Below are positions 12,081-64,000 of a stretch of DNA of 64,000 nucleotides, piece by piece. The stretch is from Heterotrichella gracilis (lineage: Eukaryota; Sar; Xanthophyceae; Tribonematales; Xanthonemataceae): NCBI GenBank assembly GCA_032358255.1, contig JAULBX010001891.1:62001-126000 (forward strand), read 5' to 3'. The position numbers were made by a program, and so were the translations under genes. The notes beneath the pieces are model-generated. The model ran no database searches and was not told where the DNA came from. It was given only the letters and a program-made list of their open reading frames with translations. Within the stretch, counting starts at the first letter, position 1. Every line of letters begins with the position of its first letter.

Positions 12081-13261
12081 CCCTAGTGTGCAGTTGAGCA
12101 AACCAAAAGAGGAGGCTGGGAATGGGACTGCTGACCTTTGCCTATTCCAGGTTTTGAATCAGATCGCAGAATATATAAAATAATCCAGTTGTACATGTGA
12201 TGTTATCTGCAGGACCTGTCAATCATTGGCTACGTTTCAATGTGGTACTGCTGGTATGGGATGCTGCGGGACTCTTAATAGAAATACTGATCAATTAGGG
12301 TTTTGATTAGGGTAGTCTACCAAGGTTGACTATTATAGTGAACTGAGCAAGGGAGTGTTGATTGGCTGGCAAAGTGCCTGGTACTTGAAGGCCTTTGCTT
12401 GTCTCTCTCTGTAGTGCGTAGTACGTCCTCTACTACGTGCTCCCGTGTGGTCTGTAACCTTTGACATGGACAGCATGCAGTGATACTACAACCCCTGCCG
12501 GTTAGATATCAGTGGTGCCGTATCAAACTGGTTTCGGAGCTTGTGTCGACACCGGTGGACCTGCGTTGTCTTCGGTTTGTCGTTATGACACACATGCGGT
12601 AGCTTGCCAAGATGTGCTGCACCCGTCGAGAGCACGGCAGACCTGTCAAGTCGAGCGAGTGACAACTGCATATGGACGCCGTTCAACGGGTACGGTGAGC
12701 CGCAGTTATTTGTGTGTACAGTGCGAGCATCGGTAGTTGGGCCGAGGTCCTTGCCGTAGCACTGAGTACACCGAGTTATGGAACAGCATGCTGAGTGTAC
12801 ACTCGAGATTCAGCTACCCGCATGCGACCAACCCGAGGCGTTCCACGAAGGCCTTCACGCAGTGACAGTGCGTGTAAACGTTGGACAGTGAGGTGAAACA
12901 GCTTGGTTGGAAACTATGGCGAATCTGAGTTGGGCAGTTTGACCAGTGAACTTCCGAAACAGCCAATTGCAGCTAGCTTGTCTGATGGACATATCGCACG
13001 TCAAGTTTGAGTATTACTAAGCTTTTCTGTGCGCTTGTTACAGGTGCACACAACCGTTAGCCATTTTTTCCCACCCACCCACCCTTTTCCAGGTAGGGTT
13101 CGCATGAGGACATGCGACCCACCCTCCCAAACTCATTTCATGAGTTTTACCCAGTCATAGTAGGGGAGGAATGGTAGGAGGACAGTAGGCGTACCCGAGC
13201 CCAGAGGTGACGAAGGGCGAGGCGAAGCAGGCATGCCGATCAGGGACAGGTCGATCTCTCC
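12081..13261. other. Intergenic DNA, no gene seen
   Basis: About 1.2 kb of lower-GC sequence after the SBPase stop. I see no ORF with coding character, only short inverted repeats near 13090-13150 (GCATG/CATGC, CTCAT/ATGAG). It should contain the SBPase 3' end. Confidence 0.4.
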
Positions 13262-13545
13262 AAAAACGGCAGCGGCCCCCTCCCAAACCCTAGCCCAAAC
13301 CCCAGACACTCAACCATGCGCCCCTCCATCCCACAACGCGGTGGACTGCAAGCCCTACCCACACCCCACCTGGTAGTCCTCCCAGCGCAGCTCCTCCATC
13401 GACTTGTTTGCATAGGCAGGCATGGCGGTGATGGAGCTGAAGTACACAGTCTGCTTCCGGCCCCCCACACTGGGGCTGAACTGGTCCCAGTCCTGGGTCT
13501 TCTGGTAGGGCACTGCGTGGGTGCCCATGGCCGCACCCATACCGT
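13262..13545 (-). pseudogene. Stray duplicate of the Nup98 GLEBS exon with flanking intron
   Basis: This segment matches Nup98 exon 7 and its downstream intron (about 6957-7240) on the same strand, some 6.3 kb away. The reading frame is open and reproduces [27 protein letters not shown] and EELRWEDYQ, followed by an intact GTGGGG donor. Intron sequence 3' of the exon is also copied. No neighbouring FG exon, promoter or start is present, so it is an orphan exon. It is well conserved at the protein level but differs from the source at several positions, which argues against an assembly artefact. Confidence 0.85.
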
Positions 13546-14955: not shown

Positions 14956-17521
14956 TCACTTCTTCTTCACCAAAGTGGTTTCCAAGTCGCCCTGCAAGTA
15001 AGGGGCACCAAAATAAACAAAGCAGGCGCATCATGTTGTGCACTGGCCCTGCACACCTGCTCTTAACCACAGGTGCATGCACAATTAAGACCAAACTCCA
15101 ACAGCACGCCAAGACCGCCTACGCCACGACTGCAGCAGCAACAACATTTCCTTGTGTCCATCACTTGCCACCTAGTCTAAGCACCATGCACGGTGCTGAC
15201 ATGCACACAACGATGGCGTGTGCACCAAACCATCTGGGCGGGTCAAAGTGCGCACCAGCCCGATGACCACCTCCTGCTGCAACATGCACATCAACGCATC
15301 ATGTGTGCAGTGCTTACCAGGTTGAGCAGCAGTGAGTCCGCTGACAGGAACATGCGGTTGGCTGAGGCGGCAACTGTGGCAGCAATCTCCTTGGCGGCCT
15401 GCGGGGGGAGGGTTAAGGGTTTAGGGTTCAGTGCACAGGAACACTGTTCAGCCCACCAGCATGGTCATAGGTCATGTGAGCATAGAAAACATGACCACCG
15501 TGGGATGGAGGCGATGCGAGCACCCGGGACGTCTCCCCATAATATGCTATAATCACCCGCTGGTGCACGGTCAGCTATGAGGTAAGCTGTGACAAGCGCC
15601 ATACAAATCATGCTACTGGAGTGCATGGCGGGTGGTACAGCAGCACGGGTCTCCGCCACGCAACCAGCGGTAGAGCATGCAGCACAGAGCAGTGATGATA
15701 TAGGTAATTAAATTGTTAAAGCACAGCACGCGGCAGGCCCTTGCTGGCCGCCACGTGGCATCCCCGCACCTCGATCTTCCTGAGCGTGAGGAAGGCTGGG
15801 TTCTGCTGCATGGCCTCGCCGATGAGCTTGGCTGACTGCGCCTCACCATTGGCCCGGATGATGGCGCTCTGCTTGTCCTGCTCAGCCTTCTCAACCTGGT
15901 GGGGGGGTGGTGCAAGAGGGGGCGTCAGCAGGGAGTAAATACCATGCCAAAGTGGGCGAGTCATGCACACGGGGGTAGCAAACTGGCGCTGGAATAATCC
16001 ATGTTGTTCACAGGCCATGATCCCATGCAGCAAAATTATAGAGCTAATTGTTAGTCTTAGTTACATCATGTAACTTACATGCATTCCAGCAACACAGCCA
16101 GACTAGCATTGTGGATATACTGTATGAATGCTGTAACTGGCATCTGTGCACTGCAAGCGGGACTACCATAGGTACCATGTGCAGGCATGCCCCTGGCCAT
16201 GTACTGTGCAACAGTGCCCTGATAGCCAGCTTTGCAAAGTGAACCCCCGCGCCACTCACAATGAACTTTGCCCTCTCCGAGTCCTGCTGCGCCACCTGCT
16301 TGGCCTCGATGGCAGCGGTGTACTCGCGGCTGAAGGTGAGCTGCGTGATGGACACGTCGTCAAGCAGGATGTTGAAGTAGGCGGCTCGTTGCGTGAGGAT
16401 GCGGCGGATGTCGCGGCTGACAACCTGGGGGTGGGGAGGGTGAGGAGGGGGTTGGGTGGTGGGTGGGGTTGGCGTGCATTGGCGGTAGGGAAGGGGGGTG
16501 GAGGAATGGTGTGTGGTGCAGGGGTTGAGGCAGATGCGCGGTTGATGGCGCAGCGGGAGGTGGAGGGTGTGGGAGGGGAGAGGCGCAACTGCCATACAGC
16601 ACGCATAGATAGTTGCAACAATCTGCCAATAGCCACGAGGCAATGGCCCGGAAATTCATCACACAGACTGGTGTCGCAAGCGATGCGAGATATGATAGCC
16701 AGCAAGCCCTCTCCGCATCTTTAGCAATGCACCGAGGTGGTTAGGGCTTTTCATAGGGTGGTGGGTTGGCGGTGTGGAGGAGTGGTGGGTGCAGGGGGTG
16801 CGATGCTTACCTCGCGCATTGTCAAGAGCTGGCTGGCGTTGTATTGTGCGATGACGCTCTTCAGGGTTTCCTGCAGGGCATCTCATGGTGTGAGCGGCAA
16901 TTGGTTGGCTGCTCATGGCAACTTGCATGCATACAGAAGAGCAAACTGACGTGCCTGTATGATGGAGGGCAACACACGCTCCGCATAGTCTGTGCCCAGG
17001 GCCCTGTAAATTTCCGGCAACCTTTCTGGCATTGGGCGGGTCAGCACACGCAGCCCGATGTTCACCTGCATGCATCTCGCGTCAGTGGTGGCACCATCTA
17101 GAAGGGGCTGCGACCTAAATCAGTGCCTGTGACTCAACTCACCATCTGCAAGTCCTTGGACCCTGACGTGCTTTGGATAACGTTAGGGCGGGCCCTCACG
17201 TCGTAGATGATCGGCCGCTCGAACCAGGGCAGCATAAAGTGCGTGCCTTCCTCGTACACCTGCCGTCACCATATGCATGCATTAGCCGCTGTGCAGCAAA
17301 AAGGTGGATGGACTACACACCACCGCGGGGCACCGAGCCGTGAAACGTACCGTTTCCTTGAGACCCACTACTCTATTGAACACGATGGCCCTGTGACCAC
17401 CCTCCACGTTGAACAAGCTGTTAGCCACGCCATACACCGCAGCGCCACCCAGCACAATCACCCGTGCGAGCCGCCCTGCAGCGTTCCCCTGGGGGATGTT
17501 CACGTTCCGGAGGTTCTCCAT
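14956..17521 (-). CDS. PHB2: Prohibitin-2 (mitochondrial inner-membrane SPFH protein)
   Basis: Prohibitin subunit that forms ring complexes with prohibitin-1 in the mitochondrial inner membrane, acting in cristae organisation and m-AAA protease control. Eight exons, all in phase: 17521-17351, 17259-17143, 17065-16955, 16870-16811, 16424-16260, 15895-15770, 15398-15318, 14991-14956 (TGA); 288 aa. The start is ATG at 17521 ([12 protein letters not shown]). An N-terminal hydrophobic stretch ([15 protein letters not shown]) precedes [10 protein letters not shown]-like [14 protein letters not shown]. The SPFH/prohibitin signature follows ([41 protein letters not shown]), then the coiled-coil [19 protein letters not shown] and LTLRKIE. 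PHB2-type features such as EGGHRAI decide it against PHB1. Intron 3 starts with GC (CAG|GCACGT) instead of GT. Confidence 0.95.
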
Positions 17522-19622: not shown

Positions 19623-19676
19623 CAGGGGTGTTAAAATATAAACCAGGAATTCCTGGTTTATATTTTAACACCCCTG
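19623..19676. repeat. Perfect 54-bp palindrome, 27-bp arms without spacer
   Basis: Centre at 19649/19650 on GGAATTCC; arms run outward through an AT-rich part to CAGGGG / CCCCTG. The 9-mer CTCCAACCA occurs on both sides (19616-19624 and 19683-19691), as a target-site duplication would. It may be a miniature transposon remnant. Confidence 0.95.
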
Positions 19677-20301: not shown

Positions 20302-23300
20302 TCAGCGTCTGCCGCGTTTACCCCCCTTCTTGCGCTTGTTGCCGCCCCCCGCACCACCACCACCACCACCACCGCCGCCGCCGCCGCTGTTCTGGTTGCG
20401 CCCACCCCTGCCACCACCGCCACCACCACCACCTCCTCCGCCTGACGACCACACATTGGTCATGAGGCCGTTGCAGGTGTTGGCCTGCACAGGGGGCACG
20501 TGCTCAGACTGGCAGTTGCTTAGGGTTTAGGGTTTTGTGTCATGAAATTCACAGCCTTCCCAACCCCCCTAAAACCTGCCAGCACTGCCCTTGCTCCGCA
20601 GCTCACTTGCCAAATCCGCCTGCTCGGCGCACTCACCCGCGCCACGAATTTCGCCGCTGTGGCAGGCATTCAGGGTGCGCGGCAGGTGCCACAACCCCAC
20701 AGCTCCCTTAATCACTTAATACGAACCCACAGCCTTCCCACCCCCAATCGCCCCACCCCCGCCAATCACCCTGCTGCCCAGGCCCATGGCCACATCCGCA
20801 TGCTCGGGGCAGCGCATGTACTCCCTCATGCCATACACCCTGCCGCTGTGGCACGCTTCAAATCGCACACCACAGCAGCTACCCCACACCCCACAAGGTC
20901 ACTGCACCCTAAACTTTAGATTCTGCAAGAAAACCACAGCCTTACCACCCGCCTAAACCCTCCACTCACCCTGTTCCAGAGCTCGCTCGCCAGATCCGCC
21001 TGCTCGGGGCAGCGCATGTACTCGCTCATGTCATACACCCTGCCGCTGTGGCAGGAGTAGTAGCTGCAAGACAACAGGCCCCGCTCCCCCCACATGTCCC
21101 CATCCCTGATGGGATGCGCCCCCAGGTGGCAGTCGCAGGGCCGCTGGGAGGTGGCGCGGGTGCGGGCGGTGGGGCGCGCGTGGTGGGTTTGGTGGCAGAA
21201 GCAGGGGACGAGGATGGGGGCCTGCGGGCGTGGTAGGGGGCATTTGGGGGCGGGGGTGATGTGGGGGTGATGTTGGAGGCAATGTGGGGAGCGATGTGGG
21301 GGGTGATGCAGGGGACAATGCGGCAGTTCGGTGCAGCCAGGGGTGTGTGTATGCACATGTGGGACATGGGCCAGATTTTTAGGCTTTTAGGCATTAGGGT
21401 ATCCAATGCACATGGATCCATGTGGGCGGGCATACCTCTCCGCCAGGGGGGCTATACCCCTGTCCCTGTTGATGCTGCGGTGGTGGGGTGTGGCGGGGAG
21501 GGGGCGTGTAATCTCGCGCGCTGATGGCGGCATCGTGTATCCGGCGCAGGCTGGCATCTGATAGGCCTTCATACGCCTGCAGGCATTGTGGGACAGCCAT
21601 TTTGCCCCAGCCAGCCACTGCATCATACCAGCACACAGCCAACAACCACCACCACCATTGACACCACTCCAAAAAGCTACTTTTTCTGATGCGGTTTGTG
21701 CTGCGTATGTCATCAATTTTCGAGATATTTCTAAATCCTAAAATCCTAAAGAAGAACAAGAAAACCCAATATACAACAAGCGGGTAACCCCATCCCAGGC
21801 ACCACCACCCACCCCCCACCACCCCACCCACCCACCGCTGTCACGCGCACAAACGCCTCCGCTGTCCCCACCGCGCTGCTCTTGTCTGGGTGCACCAGCA
21901 GGCTCTTCTGGTTCTTGGCCTTGCGCAGACCAGCTTCATCAGCAGACTTGGTAACCTCGAGCACCTAAAACAAGAAATAAATGGTCAATTTTAAAAAATC
22001 AGCCGCAGTTGGCAGAAACAAAGGCACCTCCTCCAGCGGCCCACTTTCCAATTGCGGGCGGCATGCACAAGCAACAGGCCCCGTGCATGCAAAGGAAAAG
22101 AAAGAGAGAAAGAAACGAACGAGTACCAGGTAGAGATCCTATCTGGTACCACCGTGCATGCACAGAAAAACAAAGAAGGAACATGGAAGAAGGAGAAACA
22201 ACCAAGAATAGGGACAGGACCCCGTACCTGGTACCATGTGGTGGCCGCGAGTATGCGCGCTGGCTCCCCAGTGGCCCCCTTCACCTTGTGGGGGCGCAGC
22301 AGGCCACCGGCGGATGGGGGCGGGCCTGCGGGGGGGAGAAGGTGGGGGGGTGTAAGAGGTGTAGGGGGGCGAAAACACAGTGTGTGGCCGGATGTGGTGC
22401 CATGGAGTGGAGGTGAATGTTGATCAACAGGCGAGTGTCTGAACTGTCGCCTGCCCGGCAACAGGATGATGACTCCAGGTTTCCAAGGTCTGCCACAGGC
22501 AGACACCGATTAGGCACCTACCCACCCACAACCATCACCACCCACCATCCACCTTTTGCCTGCTCTTGCTGCCTCATCCACTAACCCATACTCAGCACCA
22601 CCACCGCGCACAGCATCGCACCCACCCACCGCTGGATGCAAACAAACCACTCGGCACCCACAACCACCCGCACCACCCACCTTCCGCCTCCGCCTCCTCC
22701 CCGTCCTCCTCCCCCTCCGGGAACTTCATCCCCTGGCCAAGGCTCAGCGCAACCACCACCAGGGCCATCGCCAGGGTGGCAACCAGCCCCGCTGCCAAGA
22801 AGGAGCCCGGGGCCCAGTGCTGCATCCCCGCCAGCACCAGGCAATATGCCCCCATGGCGTAGGTTCGGCCCAGAGGGGTGGTCATGGCGATGATGGTGGC
22901 GGGGAGGCAGAGCGCGCCCCCTGCCTGCCACCACATGAGGGGGAACACCCACAGGTGGGGCTCGCCACTCTCGTAGAAGGCGTACCCTGGGGGTGGGGGG
23001 TGAGGGTGAGGATGAGAGTGAGAGGGCGGGTGAGGGTTGCACTTTGGGGGGTCAGCCTGTTTCGTATTCCAGCGGCAATCATGTAGAACAGGACAAGGGT
23101 ACAGCCAAGTTTGCATGCAATTGTTGTCCATGTGAGCAACATTTTGGATGACAGGAGCAGCCCAATTTGCATGTAATCGGCGTCCACCTAGAATCCACTT
23201 CCCCACTGCTTCTGTCCACTTGGAATGCAGAATCAAGGGGCGCACACTGCAATACCAGAAACAGGGAATGCAGGGGCACAGGGGCTTGTCACACACCCCA

Positions 23301-26300
23301 AAAAATGGGAATGCCATGGCATGGCGGACACACTGAAGTACCCTTGTCAGAGGTGCATAGTCGAGTACCCTTGTTAGGGGTGCATGGTGGAGTCCTACCG
23401 ACAAAAGGGAAACCATGGCTCAAGGGTGCGTACCAATGAGCCCCGACAAGGGGAAGGCTATCCACCAGGGTGGGTTGTAGAACGTCAGCCACCCCCCCAG
23501 CTTCAGGCACCACCACACAAACCCCGCCAGGCGGCACACCGAAGGCCACATGCCCAGCCAGCACAGCGCCAGCGCCCCCACCCCGTAGAGGCACATTGTG
23601 GCCCCAAAGGCCCCTGCCATGGAGGTAGCGCCCCCCTCCAGGACGGTCTGGGGCACACAGGCAGGCGAGGCTGTGTCAGCTGGATGTTGAAAAAAGGAGA
23701 TGTAGCCTATCTACGAGGCAGGGTTTTGTCGGCTGCAAATTGGGTGTAAGATCTTCTCTACAGCGGTAGAAATGTACTAGTCTAAAGGGATGCCATTGGA
23801 CAGTTTCAACTTGACTAAAGGGATGCCATTGGACGGTTTCAACTTGACAGATTAGCACAAACACACAAACACACACTACTTCGCCACTTGGGCACTCCTT
23901 CACCCAAAGACAGTTATAAAACACAATATTTATCCCCCACCCCTCCCCACCCGCCACTCACCCATTCCATGACCTTGAACCAGCCGATGTACTTGGCCCC
24001 CACCAGCCCAACCATCACCCCCAGCTTCAGCCACTGCAGCATGTGGTGGAGGCACAGCAAGCCCAGGGCATACAGCTCAAGCACTAGGTAGGTCCCAATG
24101 GTGCTCCAGGGCTCCTGGGGAGGCGATTGCGGCTGTGACTGTGGCTGCGGCTGTGGTTCTGGCTGTGGTGGTGGCGGTGGCTGCGGCCGTGGCTGCGGCT
24201 GTGGGCGGGGGCGGCTGGGGCAGGGGGAGGGGGCGCGGCGCGGCGGCGGGTCGGAGGGTTTCGAGCTAGGGTTTCTGCGCGGCGGCGGGTCGGAGGGTTT
24301 TGGCTCGGGGTTGCTGCGCGGGGGCGGGGTCGCTGCCTTAGCCTGCACCTTGGCCAGCTCCTGGTCGTACTGGCCTGGGTGCAGGTTCACGGCCTTGCGC
24401 AGCAGCCGCACCTGCAGAGATTTTGGTGAGTTCCTATTCAGGGTTCTGGCATGAACATGGTGGGGGCGTGAGGCATGCCGTGGCAGGGGCGTTGGCTGGC
24501 ACAGCCATCAATTCCAGACATCCATTAATCCAGTATCACAATGATGGATGCAGCATGGCAATCTTCACAACACTCGCTGCGTCACAAATTCACAACATCC
24601 AACAATGTGCACCAGGTTTTGAATTTGGGGTTTTAGGGTCCCTGTACCACTCACCGCTTTCTCCCCATCCCCCGCCTGCATGGCCTCCAGCGCCTTGTCA
24701 CGAAACTGGCGGGCGCTCTCGCGGTTGGAGGCAGCAATCCCCTCACGGTACTGCGCCTCCTCCAACTCCTGCGGGGAAGCGTCAAGGGTTTAAGGTTTTG
24801 GGGCGGGGTGCGGGAGGGGTCATGGGAAGGGTTTTTGGGGTGCACAAGCAGCACCATGGTGAAGGGTTTTCAGGCTGCACTGGAGGGTTTTTATCCGTCT
24901 GCTCACACAACAGAGGCCTGCTCAACAACTAACTGTACCGCTGGCATGCATGTACACTGTACCTTATTGACATTTGTTTCACCAACTAGTTTCAACAAGT
25001 GAGGATGCATGGCTGGCCACATGCGTGCGATTCAGAGCAATTGCGTGCAATCCAGGGCATTGGCGCACATTTCACAGGCACACCTATACAAGCACGTGCA
25101 CCCTGGGGGTCACAATTTACTCCCCATTTACCCACCTTGTCGTATTGCCCAGTGCGCACTCCTGCCCCTGGTGGCCACTGCTTTTGGGGTAAGGACGCGC
25201 CACCTGGCGCACTGCCACTGGCCTTGTTGTGCGCATGCGATGACGATGCGCCACTTGCAGCACTGGCACTGGCCTTAGTCTGCGCATGCGATGAGGACGC
25301 GCCGCCTGGCGCACTGCCGCTGGCCCTGTTGGGCCCATGCGATGACGATGCGCCACTTGGCGCACTGGCATTGCCCCTGTGTGTCGCAGGCCCTGCACTG
25401 CCATTGGCCGCTGCAGGCTGTGGTTGCTGTTTCTCCTGTGGCTGCTGCTGCTTTTTCGCCTGTGGCTGTGCCTGCTTTTTCGCATGTGGCTGCTGCCCAC
25501 TGCCAGTTCCCTCCTCAGGGAACAAAATGTCGTTAAATTCCCCCTTTGCCCAGCCGGGCACTTCCGTGCTCCAGCAGTGAGCCGCAACCGGCTCGCCGGA
25601 GGCCTGGGAGTCGAAAAACCCTCGCCTCAACCCCGGCTGGGCCCCCCCCCTCCCCCCCCCCGCCCCACCCGACTTGGACCCATTACTCCCCACGGTGGAC
25701 CCACGTGCAGGGGGGGCAAACCCATCAAAATCTGGCAGATCTTCGACATCTTCGAGATCTGGGAGGTCCTCATATTCCTCCTCCCCTGCATTACCCTCCG
25801 CCTCCCGCTCGCTGCCCGGCCCATTGCTGGTAGGGTTTGTAGGGTTTTGGGACCAGTCCCGGGCCTGGGTTGTGGGGGGCGTCCCGGGGCTTTTGTTGAT
25901 TGGGGATGCCTGTTTGGGCTTGGCTGATGGGGTGGCTGTGGTGGCACCGTTGGCGGTGGGGGGGGGTTGAGCACGTGGAAGCTGGGTTTGATGCGCAGAC
26001 TTGACCACCGTGATGTCAACCTAGGCGAGGGTGTAGGGTTCTGGTTAGGGTTCGTGCATATGTCTGATAGAGTGAACAAGCAAGCATTCGTGCTGCAGAT
26101 GTGATGAGCGAAAGGCCGCAAGATGTTGTGCATACTGCCATGGCCATTAGTGAGAAATGCAATTAATGACAGCCCTGACATGGTTTATGACCAATGCATC
26201 CAGTCATAAGACTGAACACACACACACGCGATGCACGCCATGCATTGGAAATCTGGTGTTGAAGTGGTTGCACCGCACCTTGAGCTTTGCCTTTGCCTTG

Positions 26301-42368: not shown

Positions 42369-43187
42369 GGTTATCAAGGGTTGCACACCAAAGGTAGTAG
42401 GTTCCTAGACTGGCCAAGGTGGGAGGCGTTCACGGGAACGTCAACGAGATTGAGATAAGAATCGTATCAAAGTCGCTTCGCAAGCGGCTTCGCAAAGTGC
42501 AAACGGTGCCACCTCGGATGTTGGAGGACTTGCACAGTGTGCACGCACAGGCAGACCGGCAGAGAACACGAACGGTCTATGGCCTCTCGAGAGTGGCAAG
42601 CTTGATCAGCGGCCGGCACAAACGTTAATAGTCGACTAAAGACACCGTGCCGTTTATAAAAACGTATCATTTGTAAACTGTAAGGAACAGCTTTAAGTTT
42701 ACATCATCGCCTTATGCATGCATATACAAGGCCGCCGCAGGGGCCCATATAAAACCTACTAGGGTTTTAGCCAACCCTGGCCAATGGGTTCAAGACTTGA
42801 GCAGCAATCCAGGCCGCTGCCATCTATTCAGTTGGTCCAGTTAGACAATTCTTAGCTGTACAGTCAGTCATGCACAGTCCGTTCGATGACCAGAGCATAT
42901 GGCCGCCCAAAGGGTGTCCAACGTAAAACCTACTAGGGTTTGCCCATCCCAGGTGTCTTGAGCACCCAAACCAGGCCGCTGCCACCTATTCAGTTGCTTC
43001 AGCCAGGCAGATATTACGCTATGGAATATAGTTCTTAGCTGTCAGTCAGTCATGCGCAGTCCGTTCGATGACCAGAGCCACAAGTTGCAGGCTGCCAGCA
43101 TGTGGCATGCCCACGGCTGCATGCACCAAGCGTCAGCTGTGCTGGTGTACAGAATTGATGGTCGCATGAGTTTTTGTCACTGAAGTG
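42369..43187. other. Intergenic region with GLYK promoter and a tandem duplication
   Basis: Upstream of glycerate kinase. A tandem pair of ~170-180 bp units fills 42728-43080. No coding feature. Confidence 0.5.
42728..43080. repeat. Tandem pair of ~175-bp units
   Basis: Copies at about 42728-42898 and 42899-43080. Shared phrases in order are GGCCGCC, AAAACCTACTAGGGTTT, CAGGCCGCTGCCA, CTATTCAGTTG, TTCTTAGCTGT, CAGTCAGTCATG and CAGTCCGTTCGATGACCAGAG. The second copy has a small insertion. No coding potential. Confidence 0.9.
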
Positions 43188-52445: not shown

Positions 52446-54774
52446 TGTACACGATACCATTTGCTGGAGGGCAAGGGTTGAGGCTGCACAGTATAAGATC
52501 TTTGCTTCGTGAACAAGAAGTGCTCGGCTTGCAGCAAGGAGCGCAGGCGACCCGAAAGGAAAGCCCTGCTATCGCAGAGTGATGTGTACCGGAGCTTGCA
52601 CAACTGTTTTGAACAACTAAGCTTTGCTCCCCATCACACCCCACCCACTGCCTCCCACATGGTCACATCAGCGTCATATTCCCGCAAATCGCTCGATAAG
52701 TCGCAGGGCAAGCAGCGCAATGTCGTCTTCCTGGTGGGATAGTGCACCAGTGAAAGAGCTCAAAGAATACCTGTCGAGATGCAACGTCGACTACTCTGCA
52801 TGTGTGGAGAAGAGTGAGTTGAAGCGGCTGTGTGAGGAGACAGAGGCGAGGCAAAAGCAGCAGGTACCCCCGTTTTGCCACTGCATGCATATGCTTTTTG
52901 CATGCCTCCTGTGCGAACCAGAGTCCAGGTCCACGCACCTCAAGCTTGATAGTTCAGCCCACAAAAAAATCTTCTTTGGGTGGACACTGCTAGCACTACT
53001 TACGAAAGCCATTCAAGTCAGGCATCACTGCTTGCGCCCTTGCAAGGGCGCCAATGGCATTCCAATGAATGCCTATGGCTAGACCTCTAACATTGCGCCT
53101 CCCCCAAGCAGGCCACGCACCCCCCAGGCACCTGTCAGGGCTCCACCACCCACCCTGATGACCCTCCACTGCTCAAGCTGCCAGAGGTACGTGCTGGACA
53201 CCCTAAACCACCTGTGATAAGGTGTTGGGTGGGTGGATAGGGATTGTTGGCACAGGTATCTCGATCGTCGATGGTCGCCTGTACAGGCACATGTGCAGAC
53301 ATCGCAACAAATTTGGACACCAGCCCACCAACTATGACGGATGACATTCTCCTGGGCCTGTTTTTGCTTGCATTGGTGCATTGTCTTGTCCATTTCTATG
53401 CTTCATAGTGACAATCCCGAATGGCTTGTGGCAATAAGGCGATCATGTTGCCCAAGCACATGGCATCAATTAGCACGCATGAATGCGGTATTGCAATGGT
53501 CACTGGCAATTACATGAATAAATAACCGTCCGATCGTGGTAGTGCAGGAAAATGTACACAGCACAGGGTGCACCATGTGACGCCTGGCCCTGTACTTGAT
53601 GTCTCACTCGCAGCTTTGAAAATTCCAAGATTTCATGATGGGCTGAGCTCCTCTCCCACACGGTACTCTTGCAGGTTCCCCCTCCAGCACTGGATGAGGT
53701 TCCAGGATTAGCTGCCTTTCTGACCAATGCGTCCAGCCCCCTGGTGGGAGTGGACATGGCCGCCCCATGTGAGCATACCATGACACTAGAAAACACGGGC
53801 CTGTCCAGCCACTGGAACAGACGTCTGCTGGAGAAGGTAGGGCATACTGCACATTTTGGATGGCCTCCTCATATTAGTGTGCTCACATTTTCATAACAAT
53901 GCCACATTTGTAGATGGTGAGCTGGGCGTGCCTACAGTATATCCTGTTCACGTTGTAGTGTGGCCTAAAACCTGTGTGGTTTTGTGCACATCCAGTGTCA
54001 ACAGCTGCTGTTTTGTACACATCCAGTGTCGAGATCTCTTGTGAATTGAGGTGTCACAGTGGTATATTCCGAATGGAAGCCCTGGCAAGTAAAAATTTGT
54101 CTTCACTCGCTGTTCGCTCCCATTATCATGTAACCCCCTGTGCCGCAGAGTGCCTTGGGCCGGGTGCTGCGCAACATGTTGACAAGGGGAGTCATCGCCA
54201 ACTGGGAGCCATGGTGCACCTTTCTGAACCACATGGTTAAAAACCGCCTGGAGCCCGTTCCACAGCTCTCTCAACTCCCCCAGATTGCCCAGCTGGACGC
54301 AATAACTGCGCTGATGGTGGTGCTGCGCGAGGGGTACACCTCGCCCCTGCGCATGGATACATGTGAGTGCCTGCATGGCATGACATGCCGTAGTGTGGCA
54401 CTGACGGCAGGCAAAAAGCCTCCTGCACCAATGCCTGGCAGGTGCACATGTGGTAGTGCAGAATATATGTGCAGCTCAGCTGCGCTGTTTACCTTGTTAA
54501 AAAGTTGCTCGGCTGATCGAAGCCTCTTCTCACTCACGGCATTGGCTTCAACTTTGGCGCCTTGCAATGTTCACATGCACTTGGTCCATTGCATGGCCTT
54601 GCCCACCCACTGCCCTTTTGCCATCAACTGTTTGCCCCAACCCTGGCGTAAGTGCAACATGGGGCAAGGCATACCCAGCACCGGTGGCCTGGTGACCAGG
54701 TACTTGCACGGTGCAGGTTCAGGCACTCCCAGGACTTGCGCCTTGCTGTGTAACCTGCTGCCTCACCCTAAACC

Positions 54775-55079
54775 CTAAAGCCCTAAAATCCCTAAACCCT
54801 TAAGTCTAAACTGCTGCCTCACCGTTGCCTTGCGGCTCCACTGCATGTGCACTTACCATCACGTTGTATCCTTAGTACTACTGGCCTTTATCATATATAT
54901 AGCGTGCCGCGCAGGTTGCTGCCACACCATTGCATCAGGGTTTAGGGTTTACGCTTTAGGGTTTGCCCCACTTGCAAGGACCGCTGCCTTGCCGCTCCAC
55001 TGCATGTGTTACATCTGCACGTACCATCACCTTGTAGCCTCTACTACCGTGACGATATCACTCCCAATGATCTGCGCAG
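54775..55079 (+). repeat. Ghost copies before exon 5 of paralogue 1
   Basis: The phrases CTGCCTTGCGGCTCCACTGCATGTG and CTGCCTTGCCGCTCCACTGCATGTG-type units recur (about 54820 and 54985), interleaved with CCCTAAACCCTAAA at 54768-54800 and TTTAGGGTTTAC at 54950. GCTGCCACACCATT at about 54920 is a copy of the real exon start GCTGCCACACCATC at 55083. Confidence 0.75.
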
Positions 55080-55261
55080 ACCGCTGCCACACCATCCCAA
55101 TGCTGCTGTTCTCCATGTTCCCTGCAACAATATCAGCCAGCTAACAGGCCCTGGTGGCCAATGGCGGCATCAGGGTGATCGCCAGCATTTTCATGGACAT
55201 CAGCCGCCACATCCGCACCAACATGGGCAAGCCCATAGCCCACGAGCGCAACCTCATCCAG

Positions 55262-55559
55262 GTGTTGCTGAAACTAACCCTAAACCCTGAACCCTAAACC
55301 CTAAAATGACCGCAACCTCATCCAGGTTATGGGTCTTATGAGCAAGCCCTCAGCCCACGACCGCAACCTCATCCAGGTGTTGCTAACACTAACCCTAAAC
55401 CCGTAAACCCTAAACTCTAAACCCTCAATCCTAAACGCTTTAAAGGACGGCAACCTCATGCAGGTGATGGGCCTCATGGGCAACCTGTTGGTCCATGCAA
55501 CGGCAGTTAAACCCTAAACCCTTAACCCTAAACCTTAACACGGCCGCAACCTCACCCAG
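55262..55559 (+). repeat. Newly gained intron made of tandem exon fragments and telomere-like spacers
   Basis: The phrase CGCAACCTCATCCAG|GT occurs at the donor (55247-55263), twice inside (near 55312 and 55365), once as GGCAACCTCATGCAG|GT near 55447, and as CGCAACCTCACCCAG|GT at the acceptor (55545-55561). Copies carry up to ~50 nt of the following exon (ATGGGCCTCATGGGCAACC). They are separated by CCCTAAACCC-type tracts. Paralogue 2 has uninterrupted coding sequence at this site (within 62216-62573). Confidence 0.9.
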
Positions 55560-55687
55560 GTGATGGGCCTCATGGGCAACCTGTTGGTCCATGCCACAGC
55601 AGTGGGTCCCCCATCAGGGATCAAAGAGTGCCCCAGTCTGGATGATGGCAGGGGTCTCAGGCGGGATGGAGCGGCCAGCCTTTGCAG

Positions 55688-55905
55688 GTGTGCTCTGTTT
55701 TGGGTTAGGGTTTAGGGTTTTGAGTTTAGGGTTTAGGGTTTAATGTATAGGGTTTAGGGTGTCAGGCAGGTCAGCCTGTGCAGGTGTGCTCTGTTTGGGC
55801 TTAGGGCTTAGGGTTTAGGGTTTAGAGTGTCGGGCAGGTCAGCCTGTGCAGGTGTGCTCTGTTTGGGCTTAGGATTTAGGGTTAAGGATGTCAGGTGTGC
55901 CAGCC
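55688..55905 (+). repeat. Ghost donor-side exon copies with TTTAGGG spacers
   Basis: After the real exon end (CCTTTGCAG at 55687) the unit GTCAGCCTGTGCAGGTGTGC plus TCTGTTTGGGCTTAGGG recurs at about 55765, 55828 and, decayed, 55890. The units are separated by TTTAGGGTTTAGGG in the gene sense. Copies keep the donor-like CAG|GTGTGC. Confidence 0.85.
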
Positions 55906-56189: not shown

Positions 56190-56388
56190 ACAATGCTCAC
56201 AGTGAGTGTTGTCTGTGCACAGGCTGCTGCTGTGGCATAGCTCTACCATTCCCATATATTTATTGTTTGTTTACGCTTTTATTTGGCATTGCCTGTGCAC
56301 ATGCTGCTGCTGCGGCGGCATAGCTCTCCCATTCCCATATGTTTATTTGTTTGTTTACCTCTTTTATCTGGGCATTGCCTGTGCACAG
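56190..56388 (+). repeat. Tandem copies of the acceptor region before exon 6 of paralogue 1
   Basis: Units of ~85 nt containing TGCCTGTGCACA, GCTGCTGCTG, GCATAGCTCT-CCATTCCCATAT and TTTGTTTAC recur two to three times before the real acceptor GTGCACAG at 56388. No telomere-like spacer. Confidence 0.8.
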
Positions 56389-57584
56389 GTGGTATAAGCG
56401 GCAGGGCGTGTTGGAGGAGTGCGCGGCTTTCCTCATCTCCAGGGTGGACGACCCGTACCCTGACAGGCACCGCAACTCATCCATCAATGCCCTCCAGTAC
56501 CCCTACTCTGCCATGCTCAGCATGCTCGTGAGCATGGCTCGGGCCATCCCCGGGGATGTGCGGCCGTTTTTCAGGGACAATGAAAACCTCATCAGTGCGG
56601 TGATGCAGTACGGCACCCAATGACTGTGCCCGGTCTGGTACACAAATGCAGCCTTGATGGTAGCGGTGCTGACAGAGCTTGAGACAGACCTCGTGCGCGG
56701 CGCCACCGTCCTGGCCATGGACAACTTTGTGGGTTTCATTACCGTCAAGGCGCGCACCCGTTTCCAGGTGGCCCACCCCTTGCTGGATGGGCTTCAAAAG
56801 GGCACCTTGAACGCCCTCGACCATGTGATGGTGAGCGAGCGCATGCACCGGCAGCCTGGCGTAAACCCTGTCGTGGTCTACAAAAGGCAGCTGGCTGTGC
56901 TGGTGCCATGGCTGGCGAGCCTGGCAGATGCGGCCAATGGAGACCTCTGCGTTGATGACATGGCGAGTGCGTTCACCCAGCTGCTGCGCATGTATGAGGA
57001 TGAGCAGGTCACGGATGAGCAGATGGAGGTACGTGACAGTAACAAGCGTTTATGTATACATGTAGCCACAATAGCAGGAAGTATAAGTACGGTACAGATG
57101 TAGTAAGTTGTTATTGTAACCTGTTTTGTTACAGTAACTGTTACACTCACAATTACAATCAGATTTTTATAATTTAATAAGAATAATAAGAATAATCATG
57201 ATAATAACAATAATGATACTTCAACAGGCTTTGGTGCTGGCACCGCTGGCAGCCCACCTCGGCGCTATGGAGCTTGCGCAGGGTGCTCGTGGCAGTGCCA
57301 CAGCGCGCCTGATGGACCGAATCAAGCACCTTCTGGATGTCATGAGCTATGCAATGACGTCATTCACGCCGGGCGCTGGTGCCAGGCCGTTTCCCCGCTT
57401 TGTCAAGGTGGGGCCCACACTTCCCTCCCCATTCCAAATGACTCCCCTTGCCGAGGCTGCTCGAGTCTTCAGACCAGTCAGGACTGGTTGTTCACAAATG
57501 TGGCTCATGCGTGACGATGCTGGCTGCTGCACAGGATGTACAGCGTACCTGAACCCTCCCCAATATTGTGGACACTTGTGCCTG

Positions 57585-57929
57585 CCCCCCTTGGTTCTCC
57601 TCATGCACCGCATCAGGCTGCTGCACATGTACCCTAAACCCTTAAACCCTAAAATCCTACCTACGTGCAGGTGCGCCTGGCCTTCTTGGTTCTCCTCATG
57701 CACCGCACCAGGCTGCTGCACATGTACCCTAAACCCTTAAACCCTAATCATGTGCAGGTGAGTCTGACCCTTTGGGTTCTCCTCATGCACCACATCAGGC
57801 TGCTGCACATGTACCTAAACCCTAAGCCCTAATCATATGCAGGTGCGCCTGGCCCCCTTGGTTCTCCTCATGCACCGCACCAGGCTGCTGCACATGTACC
57901 CTAAACCCTTAAACCCTAATCATATGCAG
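57585..57929 (+). repeat. Array of ghost copies of exon 8 start with CCCTAAA spacers
   Basis: Four copies (starting near 57575, 57667, 57755 and 57840) precede the real exon 8 at 57930, spaced roughly 88 nt. Each reads GTGCAG, GCGCCTGGCC..TTGGTTCTCC, TCATGCACCGCA-CAGGCTGCTGCAC and then ATGTACCCTAAACCCTTAAACC. The real copy continues into coding sequence where the ghosts switch to the telomere-like tract. Confidence 0.95.
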
Positions 57930-58439
57930 GTGCGCCTGGCCCCCTTGGTTCTCCTCATGCACCGCACCAGGCTGCTGCACGCACTGCTGCGCCTAGTGGA
58001 ATCCCAAACATCCGCTGTTGAGACCCCTGCTTCAAGCATCGTCAACCAATGTCTGCATGAGGTGGGGAGACACCAGGAGCTGGCTGGTGCGATGTACCAG
58101 GACACGGAGGTGATGCAGAGGGTATACAGGTGGGTGCTTGGGTGAGCGGGGGGTTTACGAGTGAATGATGCTGGGGATATGTCAGTGAAGAGGGGGGGAT
58201 GGGTTTGACTGCTGGTGGGTAGGTGGTGAAGGGGTGAAGAGATGATGAGCCAAAGTGTTTAAAAAGTTTGTGCAGTTGGTGACTAGATATGCCTGGGGTT
58301 TGGGGATGTCAATTATAACTCTGGATCGGTTGTTTTGGTAGGATGGGCCAGCGCGCGTCTGTTTACTGACGGCTATAGGGCACTGGAAAATGGTCATTGA
58401 TTGTGCAAGATCCTGACTGGCTGATTGACCAATCCATGG

Positions 58440-59732: not shown

Positions 59733-62700
59733 ATGTCGTCCAGGTGGACCAGCGCGTCAGTGAAAGAGCTCAAAGCCTACCTGTCGAGCTGCAAGGTCGA
59801 CTTCTCTGCTTGTGTGGAAACAAGCGAGTTGGTGTGCCTGTGCCAGGCGAGCGAGAAGAGGCAGCGACAGCAGGTGCACCCCGGGTTGCCAAATGTTTCA
59901 GTGCATGCATGCATATGATGCCATGGCAATATTACTCACCGTTTGCGGTTTTAGAGCACTGAAAACAAAGAGACCCTTGTTAAATAGGCCATGATGGTGT
60001 CACACATCGCTGCAAACCCGTTTGCAAGACACCCACAGCAAGTTTCCCCTCAATTGAAGCTACCTTGCACGCCATTGCATGGATATCAGATGCTGTGCAC
60101 TCTGCCATAACACCAAGGACAACACACCTACCTTCCCTAATTATACCTAAAAGGGATGTGTGTGTTGATCCCTGTGACCAAGTTACACCTGGGTACCATA
60201 TGCAATGGTCATGGACACCTCAACCCAAAGCTTTTTAAATTAGGTGGCCAGAGCTAGACCTTCTGATACTACGCCCCACCTCCCAGCAGACCACGCCACC
60301 CCCAGGCACCTTTCAAGGCCCCACCACCCACCCTGATGACCCTCCATTGCTCAAGCTACCAGTGGTACGCGCTGGGCATATAGAAAGCATGCCAAATTTG
60401 GCAGGTACAGATTGACACTATTATATGCGCTGCTGATATCATGATGCGGGCGCCGGTCAGCGCACGCATGGCTTGCGCGTAGTCAGCAGGGCGTGCAATC
60501 TTCATGGAGCGACCACAAACAAGAAGCTACTAGGTAGCTCCTTGGGTAGATTATATCTTTACAAATGCGTCTGTCTATTTACAGCGGCCCCCGGGTTCTT
60601 TCTTTATTCGCCTATTCTCGATCAGTTTCATACCTTGTAACTTTTTACTGTGACATGACAGAATTCATCGTTCGTGGTGATTGTAGCACAGCAGTAGTGA
60701 AATGCATGTTGTGTACCACACATTGGCATGGCCTCTGGGGCACCTGCACGCCGCCCATCACTGCTCTTGGGTTTGAACCCTTTTGGCAAATAGGTAGGGC
60801 CTGCTAGACTGCCTTCTTCACCCAAAGCCCTGGTAGGGGGACCGCCTACTTTATTCATTGTTGATTGCGCCTGATCCCCTACGAGTGTGTTATCCCATGT
60901 TGACCTGCCTCCTAGGCTTGCTCTCTCTCACTCTGTCCTTCCTCTTCCTCAACCAACACCCTCACACTTATTATGACTCTTCTATATTTATTTTATATAC
61001 CTTATTCTATTTAGTTATATTACATTTGTATTATTTATTATGTTTGATGTTTCCCTACCAGGTTCCCCGTGTGGCGGATGATGAAATTCCAGGTCTGGAT
61101 GCCTTCATAGCCAGTGCACCCCCCCTCTTCCCGAATTTCGATAACACCACACCAAACGGGGCAAACCTGCAGCACCAGCACACACTGGCTATGGGCAAAC
61201 ACATGCAGAGTCGCGTGCTGGAGGAGGTAAACTACAGTCAAAATTGAATCCAGCTATGTCAAGGATTTGCTGAAGCTAACAGACATTTAATCGGGGCTAT
61301 GCTTAGATGCTATGCCCCTGTTACCCGCGCCATGTTCCACTGGTTGCTGCCCGGCCTGGCTGTGTTTACGTAATACAATATATTGTTTTGTTTCAATACA
61401 TAATGATTGCTGGTTGTGGTGCGCCGCCGTGTGTGGGTGCGTTTTGTTTCTTTCTTTCTTTCTAGCGTGTGATACAGTGACACATGTGACACGGTGGCCT
61501 GTGCATCAGTGACCCAATACTGTGACATATGAGCCACTTTGAGAGCGCTCTAACCCCTTTATGACCTTCATGTGCTGCAGAGCGCCCTGGGCAGCGAGCT
61601 GCGCAACATGTTGACACAGGGGGTTATTGACAACTGGCGGGCATGGTGCCTCTTTTTACAGCGCATGTCTCAAGCAGCCAGCCTTCCTAGATCATGCAGA
61701 TTGCGCATCTTGACGCCATGACCGCCCTGATGGTGGCACTGCGGGAGGGGTACACCTCGCCCCTGCGCCTGGACATGGGTGAGTGTCTGCATGTGCATGT
61801 GACACAAGCAATGCCAGGACAGGCCTGGGTGGCGCATTTTTGTGCAAGGCTGATTGCTGATCTGGCTTTCTTGCCGGAATGGATGGCCAAGGAATTATTC
61901 CAGGAATTATTTTATCATACATGCGGAACCCACATGTGCATCAGCGGGGATGTTGTGTATACTGCTCCCTCACCGCCCCTCCATCACCCAATGCTCACAC
62001 ACCGCCATGCTGTGTAGACCGCAGCCTCACCATCACCATGCGTGTCCCTGTAGAGCTTCTGCAAATGCGCATGGAGCAGTGCTCGCTCAGTGCTCGCTCA
62101 GTGCTCAATACTCGCTCAGTGCTTGCTGAGTGCTCAGTGCTCGCCCAGTGCTTGCTGAGTCACCATCGGCTCCTCTCCCGTACGCCCACTCACCACAGGT
62201 TGCTGCTCCATGCAGACCGCTGCCTCACCATCACCATGCTCCTGTACTCCATGCTCCCTGTGGTCGGCAGCGCACAAGGCCTGGTGGCCAACGGCGGCAT
62301 CGGAGTGATCACCAGCATGTTCCTGGACATCAGCCACCACATCCGCACCACCAGGGCCCCGCCCTCAGCCCACAACCAAAGCCTGTCCCAGCTGCTTGCG
62401 GTGCTGGATAACGTCCTCTCCATGGCGACCTATGTGGCGCACCCCTCGGGGCTGCCGTGGTCCCACCCCGACCTGGATGAAGGCAGACCTTTCATGTGGG
62501 AGGAGGCGGCTGCACTGGATGCCCAGGAGAGGCGGGCCATTAGGGATGCGGCGGGGCATGCAGGCCTGTGCAGGTAGGCTTTGTGTGGGGTTTAGGGTTT
62601 AGAGTTAGGGCCAAAGTTTATAACCCTTCCAGGGCATGCCAGCCTGTGACACCATTTCCTGTCAGCATAGCTTTTTCTTGGTTAATGATATAATACTGAT

Positions 62701-64000
62701 TTTTGTGGTAATGAGTCCTTTGTTTAGCTCTTACTCTTCCTTGTACATCTGGGTATTGCCTATGCACAGGTGGCTGGTGCGGCAGTGGCTGATCTGTAAA
62801 TATTCTTGACGTTTGTTCCACCACATACGAATATGCGCGGTGTTCTTCTAAGTATGCACCAGGTGTTGATATGGCAGAAGGCCATGTTTTCTTTTGTTGT
62901 GCTTTGTAGTTGCCCCCAGTTGAAACGATATGATTTGGTTTGTGCATAGGTGGCTGATACGTCAGGGAGTGATGGAGGAGTGCGCGGCATTCATCGCTGC
63001 AGAGATGGAGCACCCCCGCCCAGACAGGCACCAGCCAGTCAGCTCTTGGAAATTCCTCGTCAGTCCAGACGCCCCCACCCTCCCCCTGCTGAAATTCATG
63101 GCTCGGGTCATCCCCAGGGAAGCAGGGCCATTCTCCAGGGATAACAAAAAACTCCTCAGTGCGGCGTTGAAGCACAGCACTCAAACGCAATGCAGTTCCT
63201 GGTACACGCATGCCGCCGAGCTGGTCGCGGTACTGGCAGATCCAGACGTAGACATCATCCCCAGGACCAGCTTTCTGGCCATGGACGGCTTTGTGAGTTT
63301 CATCACTGGCCAGGATCCCCGCCCCACCCCACAGGGCTTTAAGGTCGACACCTTGAAAGCAATCCACAATGTGATGAGTAGCGAGCGCAGGCACCGGCAG
63401 CCTGACGTCAAGTCTGCCGTGGATTATAAAGCGCAGCTGGCGGTGCTGGTGCCATGGCTGGCGGGTATGGTGGATGGGAGCACCGGGCATATCTGTGTTC
63501 CTGATGCGGTCACTGCCCTCACCCAGCTGCTGCGCATGTATGAGGATTGGCAGGTGACAGATGAGCAGATGGAGGTAGGTCATGATCAAATTACAATTAA
63601 CAATCAAACAATCACAAATTTACTCACATGTATGATGATATCCTCATACATCGATGAGCAGGTGACAGATGAGCAGATGGAGGTGCGACACAGTTAATAT
63701 CATATTAAAGATATGATACTCACCATTACAGCACCATTTGCATGACATCACAATCGCTATTGTTCACTGTCAATGACCAGATGACGGATGAGCAGGTGGA
63801 GGTAGGTCACAAGCACAGTAGCAATACCGGGTAGTAACCTTACCCGGTTACAGTTAAGTTACAGTCACGTCACAATTGCAATCGCAGTTGCAATCGCAGT
63901 CAAATTAAAAGAATTCGAGGATGTACGAGGATGGGCAGATGGAGGTAGGCCACAAGCACCAAAAAAACACAGTCGCAAGATGGTAATTGCAACGGTTATA
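59733..64000 (+). CDS. Paralogue 2 of the SAP-like-domain family (3' end beyond window)
   Basis: Same exon plan as paralogue 1, about 7 kb to the left: 59733-59873, 60290-60364, 61062-61226, 61581-61778, 62216-62573, 62950-63574, then off the edge. Starts MSSRWTSASVKELKAYLSSC and continues with DDPPLLKLPV, EIPGLDAFI, REGYTSPLRLDM, SHHIRTTRA, GVMEECAAF and LTQLLRMYEDWQVTDEQMEV. It lacks the two stops and the extra intron of paralogue 1. However, exon 4 (61581-61778) is 16 nt shorter than its counterpart. Its first half (GSELRNMLTQGVIDNW) and second half (IAHLDAMTALMVALREGY) are in different frames, so either the splicing differs there or this copy is also damaged. Function unknown. Confidence 0.55.
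62005..62060 (+). repeat. Ghost copy of paralogue 2 exon 5 start
   Basis: TGTGTAGACCGCAGCCTCAC and CATCACCATGC copy the real acceptor and exon start at 62210-62245 (ATGCAGACCGCTGCCTCACC). No telomere-like spacer. Confidence 0.8.
62080..62160. repeat. Short minisatellite, AGTGCTCGCTC units
   Basis: Seven or so 10-11-nt units of the type GCTCAGTGCTCGCTCAGTGC, alternating with TTGCTGAGTGC, in the intron before exon 5 of paralogue 2. Confidence 0.9.
62750..62800 (+). repeat. Ghost copy of paralogue 2 exon 6 start
   Basis: TGCCTATGCACAGGTGGCTG followed by GTGCGGCAGTGGCTGATC copies the real acceptor and exon start at about 62940-62970. Confidence 0.75.
63640..63960 (+). repeat. Ghost donor-side copies after exon 6 of paralogue 2
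   Basis: The exon end GATGAGCAGATGGAG|GTAGGTCA at 63574 recurs as GATGAGCAGATGGAGGTGCGAC (near 63670), GATGAGCAGGTGGAGGTAGGTC (near 63790) and GATGGGCAGATGGAGGTAGGCC (near 63935). Each copy keeps a usable GT donor, and the last two keep CACAAGCAC after it. Confidence 0.85.

Follow-up and report, generated by a model that had tools for sequence, protein, structure and literature searches.

Where spliceosomal introns come from is a long-standing question, and few recent cases have a well-described anatomy. The accessible part of PMC4974935 sets out the AGGT tandem-duplication model together with the cases of ATP2A1, the potato RdRp and a fission-yeast intron across four duplicates, and the corresponding part of PMC3443670 describes intron gain by break repair with short direct repeats. 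In mammals, telomeric sequences are inserted at breaks, some of them with target duplication: the available portions of PMC2246262 and PMC7215372 give a simple target duplication at 6/130 rodent, 4/25 primate and 3/66 horse loci. No human interstitial telomeric insertions are in exons and 31% are in introns according to the accessible text of PMC7215372, which treats their effect on splicing as a matter for testing. TTTAGGG is ancestral in green algae, as far as the available part of PMC8226300 goes. Among open-licence papers we found none that connects telomeric repeats to the gain of introns by duplication, and PMC6549138, PMC11782384 and PMC9860276 offered nothing decisive.

The locus described here, an intron-like insert in one of two tandem paralogues within a 64-kb window (the whole stretch of DNA analysed), shares features with several of these systems. 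As in the cases treated in the accessible part of PMC4974935, the putative donor and acceptor each fall within a copy of a single duplicated exonic AGGT phrase, there is a multi-copy array and removal leaves the protein unaltered; unlike them, the core repeat is only 17 nt around telomere-like filler, more tracts lie between the copies and the splicing is predicted. Like break-repair gain as described in the available part of PMC3443670, it has short end repeats, such as gap filling would leave, around a foreign filler (exact 17-nt direct repeats flanking 47 nt); the differences are that this filler is mainly telomere-like and that the unit was apparently later multiplied in tandem. The mammalian interstitial telomeric insertions of those excerpts have in common with it a short telomeric or telomere-like tract at a putative break and, at some loci, a target duplication, whereas here one such tract is part of an intron-like unit with exon sequence on both sides. 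Like introners (in the accessible part of PMC9860276), similar sequence recurs in introns of several genes, but only the tract does so across genes, the rest being local exon copy; comparison of the window with itself found local, gene-specific copies at the array and no single dispersed element with its ends at the splice sites. In our best reading, what is new here is a telomere-filled, direct-repeat-flanked insertion that was later multiplied, amid many related tracts. One locus, next to a sister copy that is uninterrupted, shows apparent successive steps, from a short direct repeat with telomeric filler to enlargement in tandem; related arrays lie at splice borders of conserved genes within the same 64 kb. 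If RNA and relatives were to bear this out, telomere-type filler in break repair would be linked to both the birth and the growth of introns, in a genome in which such events could be counted.

The paralogues and the candidate intron

The two paralogues lie in tandem, paralogue 1 at about 52.7-58.1 kb and paralogue 2 from 59.7 kb up to the end of the window; our gene models give eight exons to the former and five, up to position 63574, to the latter. Exons 4 (182 nt; 55080-55261, + strand) and 5 (128 nt; 55560-55687, +) of paralogue 1, delimited by homology to paralogue 2 and, for exon 4, also by translation, are together the equivalent of a single uninterrupted exon of paralogue 2 (62216-62573, +), and the aligned proteins show neither insertion nor deletion there (NLIQ/VMGLMGN vs SLSQLLAVLDN). 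Between them lies the candidate intron, 298 nt at 55262-55559 (+). Its donor side is AACCTCATCCAG, ending at 55261, then GTGTTG, and its acceptor side is AACCTCACCCAG, then GTGATG, with exon sequence starting again at 55560. A preliminary description of this DNA had already given the coordinates and motifs of both borders, the length, the two exon pieces with their fitting phases and the continuity of paralogue 2, and had recognised donor and acceptor as copies of one exonic CAG-GT phrase and the insert as further exon copies with telomere-like tracts; in all of this it was right.

The array contains five CAG-GT copies (at 55261, 55325, 55376, 55463 and 55559), and the 298 nt consist of 156 nt of exon copy, 113 nt of telomere-like tract and 29 unassigned nt; exon copy and tract together make 269/298 nt, the exon-copy limits being drawn by eye. 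The last 20 exonic and the last 20 intronic nucleotides agree at 17/20 positions, against 4-10/20 in the same comparison for 12 other introns (10 for NUP98, 4-8 for the other eleven). These 13 introns comprise 11 of the paralogues, including the site, one of the SBPase gene, whose donor was taken one base early, and one of NUP98. The four other copies in the array match the exon end at 16-19/20, and among the 3377 CAG-ending 20-mers of both strands those outside the array do so at 15/20 at most.

An exact 17-nt direct repeat, CGCAACCTCATCCAGGT, which includes CAGGT, is found at 55247-55263 and again at 55311-55327 (both +), and the 47 nt between them (55264-55310, +) are mainly telomere-like, with tract 1 at 55276-55305. 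The two repeats bound a 64-nt GT...AG unit (55262-55325) whose removal restores the exon. Apart from this short exact repeat, which tightly abuts the tract, copies 1 and 2 have nothing in common, and an exact flanking repeat of at least 12 nt occurred in only 0.5% of 600 random placements. Copies 1 and 3, by comparison, have the exon-to-tract joint itself in common: the block 55223-55294 recurs at 55338-55409 (+), offset by 115 nt, with 9/72 nt differing (4/47 outside the tract), and the joint of this duplication falls on ATGGGCAA, two copies of which lie in the exon at a distance of 51 nt. Tract 2 follows (55385-55436, +), then the fourth CAG-GT copy together with 44 nt from the downstream exon (55438-55507, +), which is offset by 96 nt from the copy at the predicted acceptor and differs from it at 4/58 nt, and finally tract 3 (55508-55538, +), 21 nt upstream of the acceptor. 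The inter-copy spacings of 51, 87 and 96 nt are all multiples of three, which we take to be a coincidence because the 87- and 96-nt units contain stops.

Reading frame and state of the genes

Ten CAG-GT donor-acceptor pairs were tested, and 55261/55559 is the single pair that adds no stop; it also keeps the frame into exon 6. Retention of the insert would add seven stops and break the frame. The donor GTGTTG is weak, judged by eye. A yUnAy match lies about 22 nt upstream of the acceptor, while the last 60 nt of some other introns have none, and motifs of the tract might serve as a branch site. On frame logic the insert is a candidate for removal as an intron, a case weakened by two in-frame stops in paralogue 1: a TAA at 55142-55144 in exon 4, 117 nt upstream of the donor, and a TGA at 56621-56623 in exon 6. 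The exact restoration of the reading frame that the preliminary description proposed is therefore good locally, for this pair, and fails over the gene as a whole. These stops had been overlooked there, as had a frameshift in exon 3 of paralogue 2 and the similar arrays at other splice borders treated below.

The lesions are accompanied by a fairly relaxed pattern of substitution. Over 403 aligned codons (exons 1, 2, 4+5 and 6, stop codons excluded; exon 3 was left out for its frameshift and exons 7 and 8 for want of a partner) the paralogues have dN 0.36, dS 0.58 and dN/dS 0.62. Together with the stops and the frameshift, this indicates that both genes are weakly constrained, and they may be pseudogenes by now unless the lesions are assembly errors. 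As to what the genes encode, a Pfam search with the paralogue protein gave no family at cut-off, the only sub-threshold match being to a rififylin-like N-terminal family (E 0.0023; score 18.3 bits, cut-off 27), and one paralogue 2 exon scanned against viral and prokaryote genome collections gave 8 and 16 pattern matches and no relative.

These same observations are what recommend the likeliest of the alternatives, namely that paralogue 1 is a pseudogene undergoing decay, where exon pieces and telomere-like repeats grew into a minisatellite that is left unspliced: its in-frame TAA and TGA, the dN/dS of 0.62 and the frameshifted sister copy would all be expected. We nevertheless consider it unlikely, if worth keeping in mind. 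Apart from its two stops, paralogue 1 is open across eight exons with GT-AG borders, and the sole stop-free pair keeps the frame into exon 6; moreover, similar arrays in NUP98 and the SBPase gene have a last copy that runs on into a protein-conserved exon, which indicates that border arrays occur in functional-looking genes. Paralogue 1 may have decayed after the insert was formed, and, given its two stops, the intron may have seen only brief use.

Origin of the insert

On balance we lean towards the view that paralogue 1 gained an intron by telomere-filled repair of a break followed by duplication. The starting point would have been a continuous CAGGT-containing exon, broken with staggered ends; if these were filled in and joined through telomere-type filler, the result would be CGCAACCTCATCCAGGT on either side of 47 nt of mainly CCCTAAA sequence. 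This first product would at once have been the 64-nt GT...AG unit, removal of which restores the exon. A 115-nt tandem duplication, joined at the exonic ATGGGCAA repeat, would then have produced copies 1 to 4. Copy 5 would stem from a second duplication, of 96 nt, and with growth of the tracts the total would reach 298 nt, while only the outermost CAG-GT pair would still add no stop. What the sequence itself shows is the anatomy with its direct repeats, the absence of an interruption in the other paralogue and the low divergence of the copies; a break, where the filler came from, in which order the steps took place and the splicing are inferred.

The divergence of the copies bears on timing. 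The copies within the insert (4/58 and 4/47 nt differing) are far less diverged than the synonymous sites of the paralogues (pS 0.41): the binomial chance of so few differences is 8e-9 and 1e-6 at that rate or, if the rate is set to 0.29, 3e-5 and 6e-4. The visible duplications are accordingly later than the gene duplication, which dates the enlargement and, only indirectly, the first insertion.

An old intron might also have been lost from paralogue 2, the array in paralogue 1 having grown later, as at other borders. The window does contain border arrays at older introns, and the comparison is limited to two gene copies. However, an old intron is not expected to end in a copy of the upstream exon (17/20 here, with 16-19/20 for the array copies), and paralogue 2 retains the four other comparable introns, so we regard such a loss as improbable and, from the sequence of the intron end, favour gain. 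Paralogue 2 can serve as an empty site for this insert only.

Least probable of all, in our opinion, is a plain AGGT tandem duplication to which the telomere-like tract was added later: five CAG-GT copies and the tract-free border duplications of paralogue 2 (the exon 6 donor, present four times, and the exon 4 acceptor, with one extra copy) speak for it, but copies 1 and 2 have only the short, tract-abutting exact repeat in common, and the exon-to-tract joint common to copies 1 and 3 means that the tract was present before the 115-nt duplication. The gain by AGGT tandem duplication put forward in the preliminary description thus survives as to its duplicated CAG-GT borders and the continuous paralogue 2; a lone, clean duplication is not supported, since the core looks like telomere-like filler inserted between exact 17-nt direct repeats, which is closer to gain in the repair of a break.

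Against a general role for the fill-in route that we prefer at this locus, its signature is rare in the window. A tight exact flanking repeat of at least 7 nt is found at only 4 of the 29 tracts, and such repeats occur at 5.5% of random placements. The four tracts are 13282 (7 nt, C-rich and of low complexity), 54765, 55276 (tract 1) and 55798 (where the 30-nt repeat belongs to an array). The second of these, tract 54765-54811, lies in the intron upstream of exon 4 and has an exact 13-nt direct repeat, CTGCTGCCTCACC, on its two sides, the whole spanning 54755-54823 (+).

Telomere-like tracts and duplicated splice borders

A local-alignment scan of the 64 kb found 28 telomere-like tracts, whereas four dinucleotide shuffles yielded none; splitting a merged row gave the 29 tracts used in the duplication and flanking-repeat tests. 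Their units are CCCTAAA/TTTAGGG, which we assume to be the species' own telomere repeat, and the window holds no chromosome end. Direct duplications flank tracts at the site, at the acceptors of NUP98 and the SBPase gene and at the borders of paralogue 1 exons 4, 5 (donor) and 8, with best scores per locus of 26 to 61; of 2108 control placements, 95% score no higher than 12 and 99% no higher than 23, and the highest reaches 44. The duplication at the exon 4/5 donor of paralogue 2 is weaker (score 11, reached by 8% of controls), and flanking-duplication scores at the 13 remaining single-tract loci (6-9) are no better than those of controls.

In paralogue 1 the exon 5 donor border is duplicated with TTTAGGG tracts (55673-55902, +), and the exon 8 acceptor and exon start form tandem copies with CCCTAAA tracts (57580-57980, +). 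The NUP98 acceptor and exon start (3334-3609, − strand) likewise occur as tandem copies with CCCTAAA tracts in sense, as do those of the SBPase gene (11071-11432, +), where two copies have such tracts. The homology-supported exons of NUP98, SBPase and prohibitin-2 are all preceded by sense-CCCTAAA tracts. The best structure match of the SBPase exon is 7b2o ('FBPase domain-containing protein'), which we take to be the Chlamydomonas SBPase, followed by 5iz3 (sedoheptulose-1,7-bisphosphatase); on these matches the eukaryote from which the window comes has a green-algal look. We considered a special enrichment of tandem arrays at splice borders and dropped it, because in intron-dense genes a 250-nt array will often overlap a border by chance.

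Some border duplications have no tracts. At exon 6, paralogue 2 has four copies of the donor border within about 390 nt (63560-63946), and paralogue 1 has one; an extra copy of the paralogue 2 exon 4 acceptor lies at 62015; and the paralogue 1 exon 6 acceptor border is duplicated with a period of 83 (56209-56389).

Orientation of the tracts

By eye, 8 of the 13 duplication-free tracts inspected (514, 1910, 15409, 20520, 24785, 26028, 31422 and 32760) are in CCCTAAA sense just upstream of a YAG and an open stretch. The clearest is at the 3' end of a prohibitin-2 intron, where the tract (15399-15428, −) lies directly upstream of the acceptor: ten bases ending in AG follow it, and then 27 residues that match solved prohibitin-2 (E 0.0017). 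Another prohibitin-2 intron has an apparent GC donor (ATACAG/GCACGT; 16950-16965, −), judged by eye. The other seven of the eight tracts have no family match, five having been scanned at that exon. The Pfam scan of seven stretches gave none at cut-off, so the exons after 1910, 20520, 24785, 26028, 31422 and 32760 are putative, as open frames or coding scores would have them. A DUF1771 domain considered for the exon after 24785 was rejected, the matches there being to bZIP and CcmH, both below cut-off, and the Jiv90 match in the gene at 20520 falls on a different exon. This Jiv90-domain gene has diverged local copies of an exon and its donor region (20526-21053, −), resembling a tandem exon duplication.

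When 21 loci were scored on both strands alike, a post hoc exercise whose idea came from 13 tracts of the same data, 17 gave a score for each strand, and in 14 of these the CCCTAAA-sense side looked the more coding (Wilcoxon p 0.002). A p of 0.15 or less was obtained for 9/19 scorable sense sides and 1/18 antisense sides, with one of the nine (25831) inside an open frame; nine of the eleven stretches that trained the coding score were exons of the two paralogues. The locus 13282 could not be scored, and 58867 and 59004 have no coding side. There are counter-examples: 54937, in the intron upstream of exon 4, is TTTAGGG-sense, as are the donor-side tracts 55697 and 62588, which lie in homologous introns and so are not independent, and 31849 is apparently CCCTAAA-sense just 3' of a putative donor.

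The AG dinucleotide is absent from (CCCTAAA)n and occurs once per unit in (TTTAGGG)n, so purifying selection against TTTAG acceptors could by itself explain the bias, with no positive role for the tract. A more ambitious and quite tentative possibility is that this lineage has repeatedly built introns from telomere-type repeats that were captured at breaks. Sense CCCTAAA, being AG-free and C-rich with CTAA-type sequences resembling branch sites, might make a telomere-filled repair in a CAGGT exon spliceable from birth, and existing introns might acquire such tracts at the 3' end and amplify them along with exon pieces.

Other features of the window

Several further repeats were seen. A dispersed direct repeat, possibly a mobile element, joins 6950-7223 and 13258-13538 (80% identity over 284 nt), and two copies of about 150-170 nt with 71% identity form a direct repeat at 42750-43078. 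A 51-nt tandem repeat at 25197-25388 lies within a long minus-strand open frame and encodes a repeated segment. Finally, a 54-nt stretch at 19623-19676 is identical to its own reverse complement.
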